This document shows positions 1,165-30,930 of a stretch of DNA of 35,246 nucleotides, piece by piece. Made by a program: the position numbers and the translations under genes. Below the pieces are notes generated by a model. That model searched no databases. It saw nothing but the letters and a program-made list of their open reading frames with translations, and was not told the origin of the DNA. Every line of letters begins with the position of its first letter. The stretch's first letter is position 1. Source of the DNA: Candidatus Bathyarchaeota archaeon (GTDB lineage: Archaea > Thermoproteota > Bathyarchaeia > Bathyarchaeales > Bathycorpusculaceae); the NCBI GenBank assembly GCA_026015145.1, contig JAOZGY010000015.1:1-35246 (forward strand). Direction: 5' to 3'.

Positions 1165-1277
1165 CAAAACTCTTTCTTCAAAAATGCTAAGTCACAAAAA
1201 CAAAAAATAGACGACACCACTAAGGATCACAGTGTATAGCTGATTCCAACCTAGATTTTTATTTAATCCTCATTAAC

Positions 1278-1342
1278 TATCTCGATTTTTATTATTTCAA
1301 GAGTTCTTATTGATGGTATTATTAGGGCTATCGCGGGGGGTT
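1278..1342 (-). repeat. LIIPAIRTL dispersed tail repeat, copy A (partial second copy 1366-1390)
   Basis: ctcgatttttattatttcaagagttcttattgatggtattattagggctatcgcgg. Confidence 0.85.
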
Positions 1343-2916: not shown

Positions 2917-3038
2917 AAATTCATACCTCCCATAAACCGATTCATCTAAAAACTATTAAATATTATGTAATACCCAATCAAGAAAAAAAACATTATTATA
3001 ATATACTACAATATTATAAGATACTTTATTTCTGATCT

Positions 3039-3112
3039 TCTTGTTCTTTCTCGTTTTTTATTATTTTTAGGGTTCTTATTGCTGGTATTATTAGGGCTAT
3101 CGCGGCGGTTGC
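3039..3112 (-). repeat. Tail repeat copy B
   Basis: ttgttctttctcgttttttattatttttagggttcttattgctggtattattagggctatcgcggcggtt. Confidence 0.9.
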
Positions 3113-4191: not shown

Positions 4192-4260
4192 CTTCTTCTT
4201 GTTCTATTTCGATTTTTATTATTTTTAGTGTTCTTATTGCTGGTATTATTAGGGCTATTA
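4192..4260 (-). repeat. Tail repeat copy D
   Basis: cttcttcttgttctatttcgatttttattatttttagtgttcttattgctggtattattagggctatta. Confidence 0.9.
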
Positions 4261-4470
4261 TCTTTGTTGTTTGCGTTTTTTAGTTTTTTTGAGATCTGAA
4301 AAATCCGTTAGACTCTGAACTGGATAATCTTCTATTCCATAATCTTTTCTTATCTTATTTTTATAACTTTTTTCCAAGATTTTTGCATCTGTTTCTTTTG
4401 CGCTTAACTCTACACTATTTTCCAATATCTTAATTGTTCTACGCAGCCGACGTTGACTTCTAGTAACCAT
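4258..4470 (-). CDS. Small basic hypothetical protein; stop codon lies in dispersed repeat copy D
   Basis: Open 70-aa frame MVTRSQRRLRRTIKILENSV...; no family recognised. Confidence 0.45.
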   Translation of the reverse strand: MVTRSQRRLRRTIKILENSVELSAKETDAKILEKSYKNKIRKDYGIEDYPVQSLTDFSDLKKTKKRKQQR

Positions 4471-4668
4471 ATCTTATCTTTCTCCAAAAAGAGTAATAGT
4501 TATTATTATATCTTTTATATTGTAAGAATAATTATTTAAGCTCCAAAATTCTAAGAGTATTTTAAACTTCGGAGATCGATTAACTAAACAGATAGAATTA
4601 CTTATATCATAGAGAAAATGAGAAACACGGAGATAATGAGGACCTGAAGAAGATTAAATTTTAATCCT

Positions 4669-4708
4669 CTTCTTGTATTATTTCGATTTTTATTATTTTT
4701 AGGATTCC
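4669..4708 (-). repeat. Tail repeat copy E (truncated)
   Basis: cttcttgtattatttcgatttttattatttttagg. Confidence 0.7.
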
Positions 4709-4726
4709 GGTTCCTTACATCTATCT

Positions 4727-6292: not shown

Positions 6293-6321
6293 TTATTCTT
6301 CTGTTTCTATTTCGATTTTTA
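6293..6321 (-). repeat. Tail repeat copy F (short, degenerate)
   Basis: ttctgtttctatttcgatttttat. Confidence 0.45.
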
Positions 6322-6421
6322 TCGAAAAATTCTGTTTCTATTTGGTTTTTTAATATCTCGCCTGTTCTTATTATTAACGATAGATATGGTTTAGTATTAG
6401 GAAAAAAGGAAAAAAATACCA

Positions 6422-7630: not shown

Positions 7631-7674
7631 AGAAAAGGATTAAGTGTAGTTTCTAATTGCCAAAATAATTTTCT

Positions 7675-7744
7675 AATCTTCTTGTATTGTCTCGATTTTT
7701 ATTTTTTTTAGGGTTTTTATTGCTGGTATTATTAGAGCTATTAG
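7675..7744 (-). repeat. Tail repeat copy G
   Basis: cttcttgtattgtctcgatttttattttttttagggtttttattgctggtattattagagctatta. Confidence 0.85.
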
Positions 7745-7881
7745 CTTGGTTATTTTTGGATTTTTTTCACTCGATTAGTTATCCAAATAAATCCCACAAA
7801 TCCTAAAGTTTATCTCATCTCATTAACAGACAAAAATATGATCTAAGCTGACAGAAAAGCTAAAAGCTAATACTTGAATTG

Positions 7882-8964: not shown

Positions 8965-9136
8965 TTCTCCCTGATTTTTTAAAATAAGTTATTAAATCTT
9001 CAAGTAATTCTGAAAATTTTTACTTATAAAACCCAAAGGAATTATCTTATAGAATTATTTTACATACAGAAAAAAGCAAATCTCCCAAAAACGACTTAAA
9101 CATCTGCAACCTAATTTCTATCAAAAATCTGATCTT

Positions 9137-9445
9137 TTTTATATCTCGATTTTTATTATTTGTAGGGTTCTTATTGCTGGTATTATTAGGGCTATCGCGG
9201 CGGTTGCCATTCGCGTGCCCGCTATTCCCATAGTTGGTCGGCATAATATTTTATCAGAGATCAACATTAATTTAAGACTGGTGGACCGTACTAGCTTCTA
9301 TAAGTTTTGTTTACTATAGGAAAAAAGTACACAGAAAAATTTTAAATTAATTCTTAAATCGCTCCAATACCTACTATTAATGTAAGGAACTCTCTATGGA
9401 AACAGGAAAAAACCTGATTAATGAGTTCCCAAGCGTCATGGATAA
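9137..9445 (+). repeat. Duplicated 5' module, copy 2 (promoter + first ~16 codons of the IPCT/DIPPS-like gene)
   Basis: Shares gttggtcggcat, tttatc(g/a)gagatcaac, aaaaattttaaattaattcttaaatc, acaggaaaaaacctg, gagttcccaagcgtcatggata with copy 1. Confidence 0.9.
9139..9206 (-). repeat. Tail repeat copy C
   Basis: tatctcgatttttattatttgtagggttcttattgctggtattattagggctatcgcggcggtt. Confidence 0.9.
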
Positions 9446-10799
9446 CGTGAGCGAAGTTAAGCAAGCCCTTGTTTTGGCAGCTGGAAAAGGAAGCCGGCTG
9501 AGCGAATGCGCAAAGCAAAAATTAATTCATTATATTGCAGGTGTACCCCTACTAGGGAGAATCCTTCAAGGTCTTAAAGAAGCTGGAATAGAAAGCGTTC
9601 ATATAGTTATCGGATATGAAGGAGATGATATACGCCAAGAGATTGGCAAGAATTACTTGGGACTCGATGTCAGTTACGTAATGGCCCAAAACTGGGAAAA
9701 AGGAAACCTACACTCATTTCTGGCTGCTAAAGGGACTTTCAAAGAGGATTTCATTCTTTGTATGGGTGATCACATTTTTGACAGCCAAATCGTGACAAGC
9801 TTCATCAATGTCGATCATAATAGTTCTGTTGTTTTGGCTATTGACACGATTGGGTACGCCTTCGATGACACAAAAGTGCTAGAGCATGAGGGAATGATCC
9901 TTGATATTGGCAAGGACATAAATCCTTCAAACTGCGTGGAAACTGGATTTTTTTTCTGTTCGCCAAAAATATTCTCATATGCAGAAATGGCTGTGAACCA
10001 AGGGAAATCAGAACTTGCTGACTGCATTCGAATCGCTGCCCAAAACGGAGATGCACAAGTGCTCGATGTAAGTGGACACTATTGGGTAGATGTAGACAAC
10101 AAAAAAGACATTGAACGTGCAAAAAGAGTTCTGGCTAAATACTCACAAAAGAAGCGAGGCGCATCCGACTTTGTAGCCCATTACTTTAATAGACCGATAG
10201 AAAACGCAATTATCCATCGCCTATCGGATTCTAGGGTAACACCCAACCAGATTACTATCTTAGTAAATGTGTTAGCCTATCTCGTAACGGCTTTATTCCT
10301 TTTTGGTCACTTGTTTATAGGATCAGTCTTAACTTTTGTGGTGGGGCTTATAGACGGGTTGGATGGCAAATTAGCTAGAATACGAGGACACTCAACAAAA
10401 CTTGGGCGTATGGAACATTTGTTTGATCTGTTATTTGAATTTTCATGGTTAATAGCTATTGCCATGTTTTTAAGCCAAAGCAAAGGTTCGTTGCCACTCT
10501 TACTTGTTGCCTCTTCCATCACATTTATCGCATTCTATCGGTTTTGCTACGATCAATTCAGCAGAACAACGGGCATTAGTCTAGACGTGTACGGGCGGTT
10601 TGAACGTGCTTTCAGGAGGATTGCTGGTAGAAGAAACATATACAACGTTTATATTCTGATAGGAGTTATCTTGGGAACGCCACTTTACTCATTAATTGTA
10701 ATTCTATTTCACTCAGCTTTAACAGCAGTGGTATATGCTTCTAGAGTAGCTATACACCTGCATAGGATTGATAAAAAAGAACAGGTAAATCTTTTGTAA
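9396..10799 (+). CDS. Bifunctional sugar/inositol-phosphate nucleotidyltransferase + CDP-alcohol phosphatidyltransferase (IPCT/DIPPS-like)
   Basis: LVLAAGKGSRLSE nucleotidyltransferase motif; C-terminal DGLDGKLAR CDP-alcohol phosphatidyltransferase motif and TMs; N-terminal tag METGKNLINEFPSVMD. Confidence 0.88.
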   Translation: METGKNLINEFPSVMDNVSEVKQALVLAAGKGSRLSECAKQKLIHYIAGVPLLGRILQGLKEAGIESVHIVIGYEGDDIRQEIGKNYLGLDVSYVMAQNWEKGNLHSFLAAKGTFKEDFILCMGDHIFDSQIVTSFINVDHNSSVVLAIDTIGYAFDDTKVLEHEGMILDIGKDINPSNCVETGFFFCSPKIFSYAEMAVNQGKSELADCIRIAAQNGDAQVLDVSGHYWVDVDNKKDIERAKRVLAKYSQKKRGASDFVAHYFNRPIENAIIHRLSDSRVTPNQITILVNVLAYLVTALFLFGHLFIGSVLTFVVGLIDGLDGKLARIRGHSTKLGRMEHLFDLLFEFSWLIAIAMFLSQSKGSLPLLLVASSITFIAFYRFCYDQFSRTTGISLDVYGRFERAFRRIAGRRNIYNVYILIGVILGTPLYSLIVILFHSALTAVVYASRVAIHLHRIDKKEQVNLL

Positions 10800-11774: not shown

Positions 11775-12256
11775 TTAGCGCGCGTTATTAAGCATAGAAG
11801 GGAAAAAGTGGGGTTTCCCGGTTTTCCTTTTGGTAGCGTCCCATTTGCTCAGTATTCTCGCAGCCTCATTGGCAATTCTGATTGCGTTCTCTTCTCCAGC
11901 ATGCGGCTTGAACTCGCCTGTAACATGACTGTTATAAACCGCAAGCACCGCGCCCGCCCTCAACCCAAAAATGCTTGCCAACGCAAAGAGCGTGGCAGTT
12001 TCCATCTCTACATTCAAGACTCCTGCTTTCTGAAGAGCAGGAACTATATTCTCCCCATAGGAAACCCCTCTCCTCATGGGGTGATTTTGCCCAGCGTAGA
12101 AATCAGCCGTGGTCGCTGTCACGCCCACATGATAATTACGAATGCCCAATTGCTCGGCCGCCTCAATGAGCGCTAAGAGCACTTCATAGTGGGCCGCGGC
12201 TGGGTACTCAGGAACGACGTAGCAGTTGCTTGTAGCGTCTAAGCGCACGGCAGCCT
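11775..12256 (-). pseudogene. Uridine phosphorylase, 5'-truncated (C-terminal ~160 codons)
   Basis: AVRLDATSNCYVVPEYPAAAHYEVLLALIEAAEQLGIRNYHVGVTATTADFYAGQ...VLNVEMETATLFALASIFGLRAGAVLAV resembles Udp from about residue 105; sequence upstream of ~12256 in this frame is antisense of another gene. Confidence 0.75.
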
Positions 12257-12548
12257 CGAAAGGCTTCACACAGAATCCAGTAGCCCAAGCGACCTGGAAA
12301 ACCGCCTTATGGAGTTTAAAGGCGTTGGCCCCGTGGGTGTGAACATATTCCTGAGAGAACTTAGGGGAATCTGGGAAAAAGCAAAACCGCACCCTTCGTC
12401 CATGACCATCGTTACCGCACAAAAAATAGGTCTAGACATAGAAGACGTTGAACGGTACGAATCTCAGCTTGTGCGATTAAACCTTGAGTACTGCAAGAAA
12501 CACAGAAGCTTGGAGTGTCCGCTTGGAATTAATTGTGCAGATAAATAG
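12255..12548 (+). pseudogene. C-terminal fragment of a helix-hairpin-helix DNA glycosylase/endonuclease III-like protein
   Basis: LENRLMEFKGVGPVGVNIFLRELRGIWEKAKP...LVRLNLEYCKKHRSLECPLGINC; HhH GVGPVGVN plus cysteine-containing tail; N-terminal half absent. Confidence 0.6.
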
Positions 12549-15963: not shown

Positions 15964-15991
15964 TAGCAACTATTTGTTCAAGTTTTGTAAT

Positions 15992-16053
15992 TATTTGGAT
16001 TTTTATTATTTCTAAGGTTTTTATTGCTGGTATTATTAGGGCTATCGCGGCGG
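15992..16053 (-). repeat. Tail repeat copy H
   Basis: ttatttggatttttattatttctaaggtttttattgctggtattattagggctatcgcggcgg. Confidence 0.85.
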
Positions 16054-16070
16054 TTTTTTGGTTTTTTAGC

Positions 16071-16607
16071 TCAATCTTCTCTTATTATTTCGATTTTTAT
16101 TATCTCAAGGGTTCTTATTGCCGGGATTATCAGAGCTATTAGCGCAACTACCATAAGGGCTAGGGCGGATGCGCTGGTTGGATTGTAGGAGCTGCCCCAG
16201 TTGAAGTTGGTGGGGAGTCCATATTCTATTAGGCGGTTTTGCAGTAGGGTGTCTATTTGTCTTAGACTATAGATGCTTGTGGCCAGGTAGGCTATGGAGA
16301 GGGCTGGGAGCATAAAACCCAGGATCTTTGATGTCCTGCTGGGCTTTTGACTGTACTGATAATGAGGAATAATCGAGAGAGCAGAGAGCGCTGTGCTGCC
16401 AAAGAGAAAGCCCCAAAGCAAACCAGTATAATACCAGTAATCCGATGCCCAATCAAAACTAAACACTAAACCAAAATCGTATAGGTCCCCATTCACAAAA
16501 AGATCTAAGCGCCACAACAAAACAAAAACAATAGCATCCAAAATGATTATGAACAACAAAACCTGAACCACCCGATCCACTAAAAGCCTCTTAAAATCCA
16601 CCCGCAC
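16071..16607 (-). CDS. Four-TM membrane protein; intact founder-type member of the LIIPAIRTL-tail family
   Basis: 178 aa ending ALMVVALIALIIPAIRTLEIIKIEIIRED; relics of the same protein found at 19060-19210, 24350-24508, 17420-17510. Confidence 0.8.
   Translation of the reverse strand: MRVDFKRLLVDRVVQVLLFIIILDAIVFVLLWRLDLFVNGDLYDFGLVFSFDWASDYWYYTGLLWGFLFGSTALSALSIIPHYQYSQKPSRTSKILGFMLPALSIAYLATSIYSLRQIDTLLQNRLIEYGLPTNFNWGSSYNPTSASALALMVVALIALIIPAIRTLEIIKIEIIRED
16075..16146 (-). repeat. Tail repeat copy I (C-terminus of the intact 16071-16607 gene)
   Basis: tcttctcttattatttcgatttttattatctcaagggttcttattgccgggattatcagagctatta. Confidence 0.85.
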
Positions 16608-16828
16608 ACCTCAACAACAAACATAGTATTGAACTATTACAGGACTACAAACGATAAATAATTAAAAGCCTTTCCCAATCAGAACTTTTAACGATGGTGG
16701 TATCTTCTGCAAAATCCTCCTTTTTAGGGATTAACCTTTAATCTTCTCTCAGGAAACATTAATGTTCGCTATTGCAGGCTCTCGTCGCAAAGACGTCAAG
16801 TAAGGTCAAGTGCAGTGGGCGCTAGAGT

Positions 16829-17167: not shown

Positions 17168-17419
17168 ATTGTAACAATAGCTCTATATTTATTAGAGTTG
17201 CCTTACTTGCACAGCCCCTGAAAATTCTATTTGAAAACACATTCACCAAGCGCGTGCACGTGTATTAAGAAATCTCCTGTCTCAGGCTGAGAACCATGGA
17301 GAAAATGTTAACTTTAAGTACTAATTTAGCACAATAGAACGCCATTGATGATTTCATAGATAACAAACTGTAACAAATAATGGTGGCATTAATGAAATCG
17401 TTTAGGTTTTCATTTTTTA

Positions 17420-17510
17420 CTTCTTGTTCTATCTCGATTTTTATTATTTGTAGGGTTCTTATTACCGTACCACTATCGTACCACTCAAACGCAAAGAAAG
17501 CAATGCTCAA
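17420..17510 (-). pseudogene. 3' fragment of the same membrane-protein family (repeat copy J)
   Basis: VIRTLQIIKIEIEQEVKNEN encoded on minus strand. Confidence 0.65.
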
Positions 17511-17563
17511 TAAAGAAGAAAAAATGGGTGCTAAATAAGCGACCTGAACTTTTTTGTTGCGAA

Positions 17564-18376
17564 CTAAGTGGATTTAACTTTAAGGGTTTTACTGTATTTT
17601 ATCGCTACAACTGCTGCTACTAAGCATAAAGCAACTCCATATATATTATAGAAGATCACCCAATTCACAGGCGCCATTGTTGTTGAGATCAGTATTCCAT
17701 AAAAGCCTGTTGAGCTAGCATGCATCAACATAGCTAATGGAAGGCTTTGTGTGTTTTCATATACCCACACAATCAACACTCTTAGCGGAATAATATGCAA
17801 GCCAAAACCAATAAAGTAAGGCAGCCAATACCCTCCAAAAGCCGCATTGTTTGCTAGAAAGTCAGCTAAAACATGCCACACTATATGAATAAACCCAAAG
17901 TATAGGGCTACTGTTAGGGCACTTCTTTTGGCTTTCATTTTAGGATAAACAAATCCCATCCACCCGGTCTCTTCGAGCAATCCAGCCATGGGTCCACCCA
18001 CCACCCCAAAAAAACCAAATACTGGTGCCAACTCAGGGGAAACAAAAACACCCAAAAACACAGAAACCAAAAGCAAAAGAGCAGGGAAGATCAAAAGCGG
18101 AAGATACCAGCGCCATGCAACCTTGATTTTCTTCATTCTGCTAAACAAGTCTTTTAATCCGGCTTTTCCATCAACAAGATAACTCATTATTAAGCCAGCA
18201 AAGAAAGGCCCATTTAACATGCCCACAGCCATCAGCCCAATGTCGCTTAACTCAAAGGCCTCACCTGCAAGAAACTTTGGTCCTGCTATTGCAAAGGTGC
18301 TAATCCAAGAAATCGCAAAGGCCAACACAAAAAAGACAGCAACTGAGTGGCGCTTAACAAAGCTTTGATTGTTCAT
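17564..18376 (-). CDS. CPBP-family intramembrane metalloprotease (CAAX-like)
   Basis: GLLEETGWMGFVYP EExxW-type motif, FGFIHIVWH, multiple TMs. Confidence 0.9.
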   Translation of the reverse strand: MNNQSFVKRHSVAVFFVLAFAISWISTFAIAGPKFLAGEAFELSDIGLMAVGMLNGPFFAGLIMSYLVDGKAGLKDLFSRMKKIKVAWRWYLPLLIFPALLLLVSVFLGVFVSPELAPVFGFFGVVGGPMAGLLEETGWMGFVYPKMKAKRSALTVALYFGFIHIVWHVLADFLANNAAFGGYWLPYFIGFGLHIIPLRVLIVWVYENTQSLPLAMLMHASSTGFYGILISTTMAPVNWVIFYNIYGVALCLVAAVVAIKYSKTLKVKST

Positions 18377-18999
18377 TAATTTTCACCTCCTATAGAGTTT
18401 TTTGCAATTTCTGAGATGAATTTGATATGAGAGAGCATCTTTTCTTGAATCGTTTTGGTAGGAAGATTCCAATTGCTAAGAATATTGTACTCAAACTGCA
18501 ATCCCAACATGCCATAAGTATACTCTAAAGCCAAAACCTTTGGATCATTATCTTTTCCTATCAGATTGCTTTCTTGCATTATCTCAAAGATCATAACAGC
18601 AAGCTTTTGCTGTCTAGTGAAAAACTCCTCAAGAGCGATGTCTCGTGCTCTTTGGTTTTGAAACATTTCTAATAAAACAATCTTTGATATCTTTTGTATC
18701 TGGGGTGTTTGGGTTGCTTTTTGAAAGTTAACCAATCCAGTTTCCCAAAACTGCTCTGGGGGGATGGTTTTGATTTTTTCTTGTAAGTACTGCTTTGTGG
18801 GTGTGGCTTTTTGCATTTGTGTTTGGAAGTAGTCAAAGATCTTGGTTAGGATATCGTCTTTGTTTTTGTAGTGGTTGTAGAGGGAGCTCTCTTTTATGCC
18901 TACGTTTCTTGTGATTTCGCGGACAGAAACGCCGCTAAACCCCTTTCTGGAGAACAAATCGACTGCTGTGTTGAAGATTTTTTGTTTGGTGGTGCTCAT
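18376..18999 (-). CDS. TetR/AcrR-family transcriptional regulator
   Basis: TKQKIFNTAVDLFSRKGFSGVSVREITRNVGIKESSLYNHYKNKDDILTKIFDYF. Confidence 0.95.
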   Translation of the reverse strand: MSTTKQKIFNTAVDLFSRKGFSGVSVREITRNVGIKESSLYNHYKNKDDILTKIFDYFQTQMQKATPTKQYLQEKIKTIPPEQFWETGLVNFQKATQTPQIQKISKIVLLEMFQNQRARDIALEEFFTRQQKLAVMIFEIMQESNLIGKDNDPKVLALEYTYGMLGLQFEYNILSNWNLPTKTIQEKMLSHIKFISEIAKNSIGGEN

Positions 19000-19016
19000 T
19001 TATTTTCACTTTATAA

Positions 19017-19058
19017 CTAACGTTCGTTAGTCTAATATATAAAACTAACGATCGCTAG
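19017..19058. promoter_or_regulatory. Two tandem operator-like palindromes flanking a TATA-like element upstream of TetR
   Basis: ctaacgTTcgttag (19017-19030) and ctaacgATcgctag (19045-19058), centres 28 bp apart, with taatatataaa between. Confidence 0.75.
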
Positions 19059-19059
19059 C

Positions 19060-19210
19060 AACAAAAAAAAACAACAAACCATACAAAAAAATCACAAAAA
19101 ATAGAACCTGAACAATCCGATCCCTTAGCAAATCCTTAAAATCCACAAGCATACCTCAACAACAATTAATGTTACAAACGATTACACAGCCATAAATAAT
19201 TAAAAACATT
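19060..19210 (-). pseudogene. 5' fragment (promoter + N-terminus) of the 16071-16607 membrane-protein family
   Basis: Minus translation MLVDFKDLLRDRIVQVLFFVIFLYGLLFFF versus MRVDFKRLLVDRVVQVLLFIIILDAIVFVLL; upstream DNA also similar (caacaacaa...ataaataattaaaa). Confidence 0.75.
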
Positions 19211-19314
19211 TTCTAATCAACCTATCAAAAGCGTAAGGGAAAAAATTGTTTATTGCCTATAATTAGAAACGCCAAAATGCAACAAGACAAATTGCTTTTT
19301 CTCTTCAAGCAAGC

Positions 19315-24349: not shown

Positions 24350-24508
24350 TAGTTCATTAGCGATAGGGCTGAGGTGCTTGTTGGATTATAGGAGCTGCCC
24401 CAGTCAAAGCTTGGGGGTAGCCCATATTCTATTAGGCGGTTTTGCAGTATAGAATCTATTTGTCTTAGACTCCAAATGCTAGCACCCTCATAGACTATGG
24501 CGAGGGCT
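24350..24508 (-). pseudogene. Internal fragment of the LIIPAIRTL-tail membrane-protein family
   Basis: Minus translation SLRQIDSILQNRLIEYGLPPSFDWGSSYNPTSTSALSLMN* versus SLRQIDTLLQNRLIEYGLPTNFNWGSSYNPTSASALALM in 16071-16607. Confidence 0.85.
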
Positions 24509-24523
24509 GATGCAATAAGGAAA

Positions 24524-25069
24524 TCAATGTTTCGTAAGATATATTTTGGTAGCTGAGAACTGAATTACGGTGGCCACCGCTCCAAACGATATAATTTCTG
24601 GCACAGCGATACCAGCACTATATACATTCATTCCAAACAGCACGAATGAAATTAAACCTACTAAGAACGCTGTTAATGCTAACAGTGATTTCTTTTCAAT
24701 GGCATTAACTATCGATGTACTCCATATTGACAGGAAGAATAATACTGCAACTAAACCGTGGAGAAAACCGTAGACTTCGTCGAATGTGGCTACAAGCTGA
24801 AGTATAACTGCTGAAGCGATTATACAAAAGCTGGTGTACTTTGCATGTGTTTTAAGGATGGTTACTGTATAGATTATTATAATAAAGCCTGTGAAAAACA
24901 AGCCTAGATTAAATATTGGCGCAACTCCACTATTTACTGAATGTCCAAGATCACTTAGAGCGTTTCTTTGCCAACTAAACCAAGGGGCATACACAATAGA
25001 AAACACAATAGAAAAGTAAGTTACAAAGGGACCAATGATGCCTAACAACGCATAGTTTTTTTCTTTCAT
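24524..25069 (-). CDS. DUF998-like six-TM membrane protein
   Basis: PWFSWQRNALSDLGHS...FNLGLFFTGF. Confidence 0.75.
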   Translation of the reverse strand: MKEKNYALLGIIGPFVTYFSIVFSIVYAPWFSWQRNALSDLGHSVNSGVAPIFNLGLFFTGFIIIIYTVTILKTHAKYTSFCIIASAVILQLVATFDEVYGFLHGLVAVLFFLSIWSTSIVNAIEKKSLLALTAFLVGLISFVLFGMNVYSAGIAVPEIISFGAVATVIQFSATKIYLTKH

Positions 25070-25534
25070 GGGTCTTCCTCCTTTTAAAACCGTATTAATT
25101 GTAACTATGTTAATAATTTCAGATAAAACATTTTTCCGTTGGATTTTCCCAGGAATAATGAGCTTTAGTGTCTCTTATTGGATATAATCTAATTCTACAC
25201 GTTTTGCCATTAATTGGGTTTAGCTTAAATCCCAAAAAAAGGAGAGTTTGCGGGTGTTATCTCAAGCTTTCACTAGAGATATCGCACTTGGTTAGAGGTC
25301 CAAATTGTGTTAATAGATACCTTAGGGTAATTAATTCAAGCGATTATCACTTATACTAGATTTAAAAAAATTTTAGTCGACACTAATGTACATGTACTGC
25401 AAAAATTAGGTATTTTGTGACATTTTCTTATAGCGATTATATCACCTGAGCAAGAATCTGTATTTTGTGTTCATAAAATAGATATAATTCCCTTAAAAAT
25501 AAATAAACCAAAAAATTCTAGGAGGCAAAACTTT

Positions 25535-26822: not shown

Positions 26823-26965
26823 TAAGGGACATTATGAAACGCTTATTCCAACATGTCCCTTATGTATCACGTTTCATATAGTGCAAAAAGTGGGGGTTTC
26901 GGGTGACATCTCCACTGCGGCGAGGGTTCAAATCTATCCTCAGATGGATTAGGACTGGTGGGCAT
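26823..26965. ncRNA. Candidate structured RNA/DNA element with interleaved inverted repeats
   Basis: 10-bp and 9-bp perfect complementary arms in A-B-A'-B' order followed by GC-rich stems in an AT-rich intergenic region. Confidence 0.4.
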
Positions 26966-29411: not shown

Positions 29412-29472
29412 ACCTTGGAATTCATTCGTTTTTTCCTTACTTTAGCGGTTCTTTGCACATTGGGTACTGTTT

Positions 29473-29526
29473 GATTGTTATTACTTCCAGGGTTCTTATT
29501 GCTGGTATTATTAAGGCTATTAGCTT
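29473..29526 (-). repeat. Tail repeat copy K
   Basis: gattgttattacttccagggttcttattgctggtattattaaggctatta. Confidence 0.8.
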
Positions 29527-30367: not shown

Positions 30368-30930
30368 AGAAGTACCTTGAAAAGAAGGAATAGAAAAAAA
30401 AACACGGCTTCTGGAAAGCACTGACAGGCCATGAAATTGGTTGGATTAAATTTTAATCCCAAACCCAAACCCACGTACTCCCGCATACATACCCGTATAC
30501 ACATACACATATACGTGCGTGCAGTCAATCACTCAGTCACTCACTCACCCGCATATAGAAAATATGAAAATATGAAAACTCTTTCAAATCTAATATTCTC
30601 TTCTACCTTTTCTCCCTCTCTCTTACTCTCTCCTTACACACCCACAACACACAAGAAAAAGTGAATAGGAGAAATATGAAATAATATTCTTCTTTCAAAT
30701 AATTTGTTACTGTTTAATAAGTCATGGTCTAATTTCACAGAAGGCAAATTGTTGTCGAGATGAGGTAGCCTCGTTCAGAATGGACACTTTTTCAACATAT
30801 CTCGCAAACCTTTTCCCTTTTTTAGTTTTTAAATTTACTGAATACGATCAAAGAAAACAACGAATGAGTTGATACAACCCAAAATTTTATTTTCCACTCC
30901 GAACAATTCAACTTGGTGATTGAATTGGGT

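Follow-up and report, generated by a model that had tools for sequence, protein, structure and literature searches.

The adjacent tetR and CPBP/Rce1-like protease genes on the minus strand of the window (the whole stretch of 35,246 nucleotides that was analysed) form an autonomous operon with its own promoter. We put the probability at about 0.7 that this operon was acquired and came to adjoin a truncated gene relic in a rearrangement-rich region, close to a non-coding 3'-end repeat that has been amplified locally. The first-pass annotation had read the same stretch differently: the regulator-protease pair was said to have been inserted into, or to have replaced, the body of one gene of a membrane-protein family, whose two ends survive on either side. 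Part of that reading holds, in that a self-contained unit lies flush with a truncated 5' end of the family gene, but the 3' piece (here c17) does not stand as the end of that same gene. A cassette inside one gene copy is thus only partly supported; a single interrupted gene is not established because the sequence taken for its back end belongs to a repeat with about ten scattered same-strand copies.

The operon begins with tetR (18376..18999, minus strand; TetR_N, Pfam PF00440, 5e-12), followed by the CPBP/Rce1-like membrane protease gene (17564..18376, minus strand; Pfam PF02517, Rce1-like, 3e-7), and its promoter (19009..19063, minus strand) has an operator-TATA-operator arrangement, CTAGCGATCGTTAG / TTTTATATA / CTAACGAACGTTAG. 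Judging from this layout, TetR very probably binds both palindromes around the TATA box and represses tetR-CPBP. The two genes are likewise adjacent and co-oriented in two genomes from the same order as the window archaeon and another family, G084 and G091, with identities of 58% and 64%, respectively, for tetR and of 70% and 63% for CPBP, and the order and spacing of the operators and TATA box upstream of tetR are kept in all three genomes. Neither relative has membrane-protein-family sequence flanking the operon; in G084 (L099), palindromic GGGTTAAATTTTAACCC-like repeats lie between genes on both sides of it. CPBP is found in 6 of the 257 genomes of the class, the window genome counted, and was absent from the three congeners searched. 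The intact operon with its operators in the two relatives, together with this absence, is the evidence for acquisition. In the congener G002 only the decayed first ~40 codons of tetR are present (L073, 11799-11914), upstream of a membrane-protein-like ORF.

The relic beside the operon belongs to a family with one intact member in the window (16071..16607, minus strand, 178 aa), our reference copy, which has no Pfam match and whose protein gave no match when scanned directly against GTDB contigs; it agrees at 55-57% with genes of G002 (C41) and G003 (C78). The G002 member (L051, 8224-8910) extends beyond the end of the window gene into a helix-hairpin-helix-like tail, with an HHH_5 match just under the cut-off, and the tails of the G003 members are lysine-rich; by comparison, the window gene stops early. 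At 19059..19219 (minus strand), the relic covers such a gene from its promoter through the leader to about codon 30, retaining a TATA-like TTTTTAATTATTTA, a TTGAGGT leader, and an ATG that starts a residual ORF of 35 codons. The annotation's minus-strand promoter and first ~30 family codons at 19060-19210 are borne out: 19059-19219 matches 16515-16681, both on the minus strand, at 71% across 171 bp (67% in a global alignment), with a local score of 103, where shuffled sequences reached at most 35. The other fragment, 17420-17467 on the minus strand, matches the family 3' end over 38-44 bp with a score of 51, the best shuffle scoring 31; both fragments therefore exceed chance, and both lie on the minus strand in the correct order and orientation, as had been stated. 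The relic is 71-75% identical to the G002 gene (C41), and the intact gene and the G002 gene agree at 66%, about the same divergence as that between relic and gene, so the relic is old. A similar 5' relic in G001 (C395), 74% identical to the intact gene, contains a stop and has lost its start; it directly precedes another, co-oriented ORF for a different small membrane protein, with no 3' piece within the 6.7 kb read there, and G001 has no family protein match.

On the tetR side, family homology ends at ~19059 and the first operator starts at ~19063 with no spacer; because the operator block begins where family homology stops, this left junction is genuine and direct. The far side of the cassette is less simple than the annotation had it, with only TetR operators, tetR, and CPBP between the fragments: the two genes are confirmed by their Pfam matches, but ~97 bp without family sequence also separate the CPBP stop (17564) from the 3' piece. 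Between CPBP and the 3' piece lies a 55-bp non-family stretch (17460..17514, minus strand) that is 84% identical to G000:C79:1482-1536, upstream of another tetR, and adjoining it on the CPBP side is a possible 3' untranslated stretch shared with G084, marginal at a score of 35 when shuffles reach 29. The family gene lacks codons ~31-165, which makes a clean insertion impossible, and beyond the cassette only ~44 bp of repeat are present.

The 3' piece c17 (17419..17475, or about 17419-17467, minus strand) is a 5'-truncated member of a repeat. Searches of the window by blastn and nhmmer, with the 3' end of the family gene as query, recovered at least nine strong solo copies (~60-75 bp) and one weak copy on this 35-kb contig besides the gene's own 3' end, all of them on the minus strand: c1 (1271..1340, with a degenerate second copy at ~1360-1421), c3 (3034..3108), c4a (4192..4262), the truncated c4b (4664..4721), c7 (7674..7749), c9 (9132..9204), c15 (15979..16053, just downstream of the intact gene), c17, and c29 (29465..29526) by nhmmer, and the weak, degenerate c6 (6297..6372) by blastn only (nhmmer E 0.29). 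The c1 region matches 15988-16101 at 88% over 115 bp. In the draft assembly of 139 contigs, where copies could be lost at contig ends, the other 138 contigs contain only 17-18-bp matches; clear matches in congeners coincide with the family genes' own 3' ends, and the remainder are fragments of at most 42 bp. The repeat matches no known RNA family in Rfam, the window contains no tRNA target, and no exact match of the repeat was found in public genomes or viral contigs. Compared over a 44-bp core, c17 shares 91% of positions with c3 and with c4a and 89% with c9, but 80% with the intact gene. This grouping with the solo copies is not strongly resolved at such a length (~44 bp), and gene conversion could have homogenised the repeats and so masked a common origin of the relic and c17. 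The family C-terminus annotated at 17420-17480 is a real 3'-end match, but it is a member of the repeat, and its being the other end of the relic's own copy is not supported.

Differences among the repeat copies fall about evenly over the three codon positions (25/22/20), and coding constraint is absent. The intact gene differs from its orthologues at 9/2/22 and from the repeat consensus at 3/2/8. This even spread among copies, set against the uneven spread between gene and consensus, suggests that the repeat most likely derives from a once-coding paralogue that then spread as non-coding DNA. We also considered the solo copies as conserved mini-genes and rejected this because their differences are even across codon positions. 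Nearly all copies are intergenic, and in the part of the window from 1.16 to 9.4 kb, seven of the eight gaps between listed ORFs contain one if the weak copy is counted. The simplest guess for the confinement of the repeat to one region and one strand is local same-strand duplication, by template switching or unequal recombination.

The junction of relic and tetR is one of several gene-fragment joins in this region. An interior fragment of another family copy (24355..24509, minus strand; 80% identical to 16152-16306) starts exactly where the homology of a DUF998 gene region to G002:C95 (24509-25071) ends, a junction that we noted across 24355-24561. The segment 3031-3347 is duplicated at 9128-9447 (84% over 322 bp) and holds a copy of the 3'-end repeat, the promoter region of a CBS-domain gene, and its first 16 codons; at 9396 the duplicated CBS 5' end is fused in frame to an NTP-transferase/CDP-alcohol phosphatidyltransferase (CDP-OH-P-transferase) gene, an apparent capture of promoter and start. 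At 11775-12495, the 3' end of an endonuclease-III-like gene (12249-12495, plus strand; a name read from the sequence without a database match) overlaps a truncated phosphorylase gene on the minus strand in a chimaeric junction, and the phosphorylase gene is N-terminally truncated, covering only positions 96-228 of the PNP_UDP_1 profile. Three short dispersed repeats (25234-25286, 26885-26963, and 30756-30824) match many contigs in G000 and G002, with at most 93% identity between species and no match in Rfam; the second contains GGTTCAAATC, resembling a tRNA T-loop.

These data bear unequally on the explanations that could be offered. That the operon entered one family gene or took the place of its body, with the two fragments as the ends of that gene, would account for two real fragments in order on one strand and for a left junction flush with the cassette, and the same observations count against an acquired operon joined to an unrelated relic, since they also fit replacement of most of one gene. 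We nevertheless regard a single interrupted gene as unlikely: the 3' piece is a repeat with many nearby copies, which it resembles more than it does the gene; nothing of the gene body is left; and sequence from outside the family intervenes between CPBP and the 3' piece. Furthermore, for positions drawn at random from the window, a repeat copy lies within 1.65-1.8 kb downstream in 40-42% of cases, and with a ~40% chance of such a neighbour the pairing of 5' and 3' fragments weighs little. An uninterrupted gene at this locus was found in no relative, nor was another locus found with cargo between the same 5' and 3' fragments, the G001 relic preceding a different gene without a 3' piece. Gene order around these genes is scrambled even among the congeners examined, and because it is not conserved, no orthologous or empty site was identified in them. 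A somewhat likelier, though still doubtful, alternative is that the relic may be kept because its promoter and leader help to express the gene downstream, as part of a pattern in which 5' ends would have been pasted repeatedly before unrelated genes in the genus. The preserved promoter and ATG of the window relic would suit this, as would the position of the G001 relic and the CBS promoter region and first 16 codons carried by the NTP-transferase gene at 9396. Against it, a conserved TATA of the operon's own lies between the tetR-CPBP operators, and the G001 relic contains a stop and has lost its start.

The repeats could alternatively be sites of site-specific recombination, akin to att or attC, left by the serial integration of cassettes including tetR-CPBP. 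Their clustering on one strand of one contig, with one or two genes between most of the copies that lie from 1 to 9.4 kb, is in keeping with this, as are the origin of the repeat from a gene 3' end, the kind of sequence that many integrases target, and the tyrosine-recombinase genes elsewhere in the genome. Against it, no recombinase gene was recognised in the window and the genome's PF00589 matches all lie outside the contig; six of seven sequences tested fold no better than their shuffles (z of about +0.6 to +1.4, with -1.5 in the other); copy boundaries are ragged; several of the genes between copies are present in congeners too, but at unrelated positions; and gene order is scrambled in the congeners examined. 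Lacking both the fold and an integrase in the contig, the att/attC reading is very improbable, and we reject it. The looser idea that the repeats mark a local, strand-biased system of gene acquisition or rearrangement, with the ~60-bp 3'-end sequence as the joining point of one- to two-gene units such as tetR-CPBP, appears just as remote.

Under the preferred reading, an acquired autonomous operon joined to a gene relic, the lineage most likely acquired tetR-CPBP as a self-regulated two-gene operon, which then came to abut the 5' part of a family gene; the gene body would have been lost or cut at about codon 30, by the same rearrangement or an earlier one. The operon's own promoter would suffice, and the relic promoter would be unneeded because TetR would act on the palindromes around the operon's own TATA box; the relic promoter may add read-through transcription that the operators would block. 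The 3' piece c17 would be a copy of the non-coding repeat, itself made from the 3' end of a paralogue since lost, spread in one region and on one strand, and would be present through local abundance or have arrived separately, rather than being the other half of the 5' relic.

This reading corrects an attractive but over-read pattern: where a locally repeated sequence supplies the 3' fragment, 5' and 3' fragments of the same family need not derive from a single copy. The analysis further describes an archaeal genus in whose genomes there are 5' relics that carry promoters, chimaeric genes, and a gene-end repeat biased to one strand and restricted to one region, and provides material useful for studying the reshuffling of operons and promoters in archaea. 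A search of the literature found only general material, but individual parts resemble known systems. Like integron attC arrays and the att repeats at gene 3' ends in SCC-like elements, the window has direct repeats in one orientation that separate one to two genes; unlike attC arrays, its repeats are without an attC-like fold, no recombinase was recognised in the window, repeat ends are ragged, and the genes between are ordinary chromosomal ones. The palindromic operators around a TATA box, followed by tetR and then CPBP, correspond to a TetR-autoregulated operon for a CPBP/Rce1-like protein of the CAAX protease family (PF02517), a layout that the two relatives share; the window differs in that its operon adjoins the truncated 5' end of an unrelated gene, in a genus whose searched congeners are without CPBP. 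Finally, truncated-gene relics and junctions born of rearrangement have a counterpart in the fusions described in PMC12803068, in which fragments of distant genes are joined at intragenic breakpoints; the window is alike in holding several such joins, which deletion or insertion may have produced.
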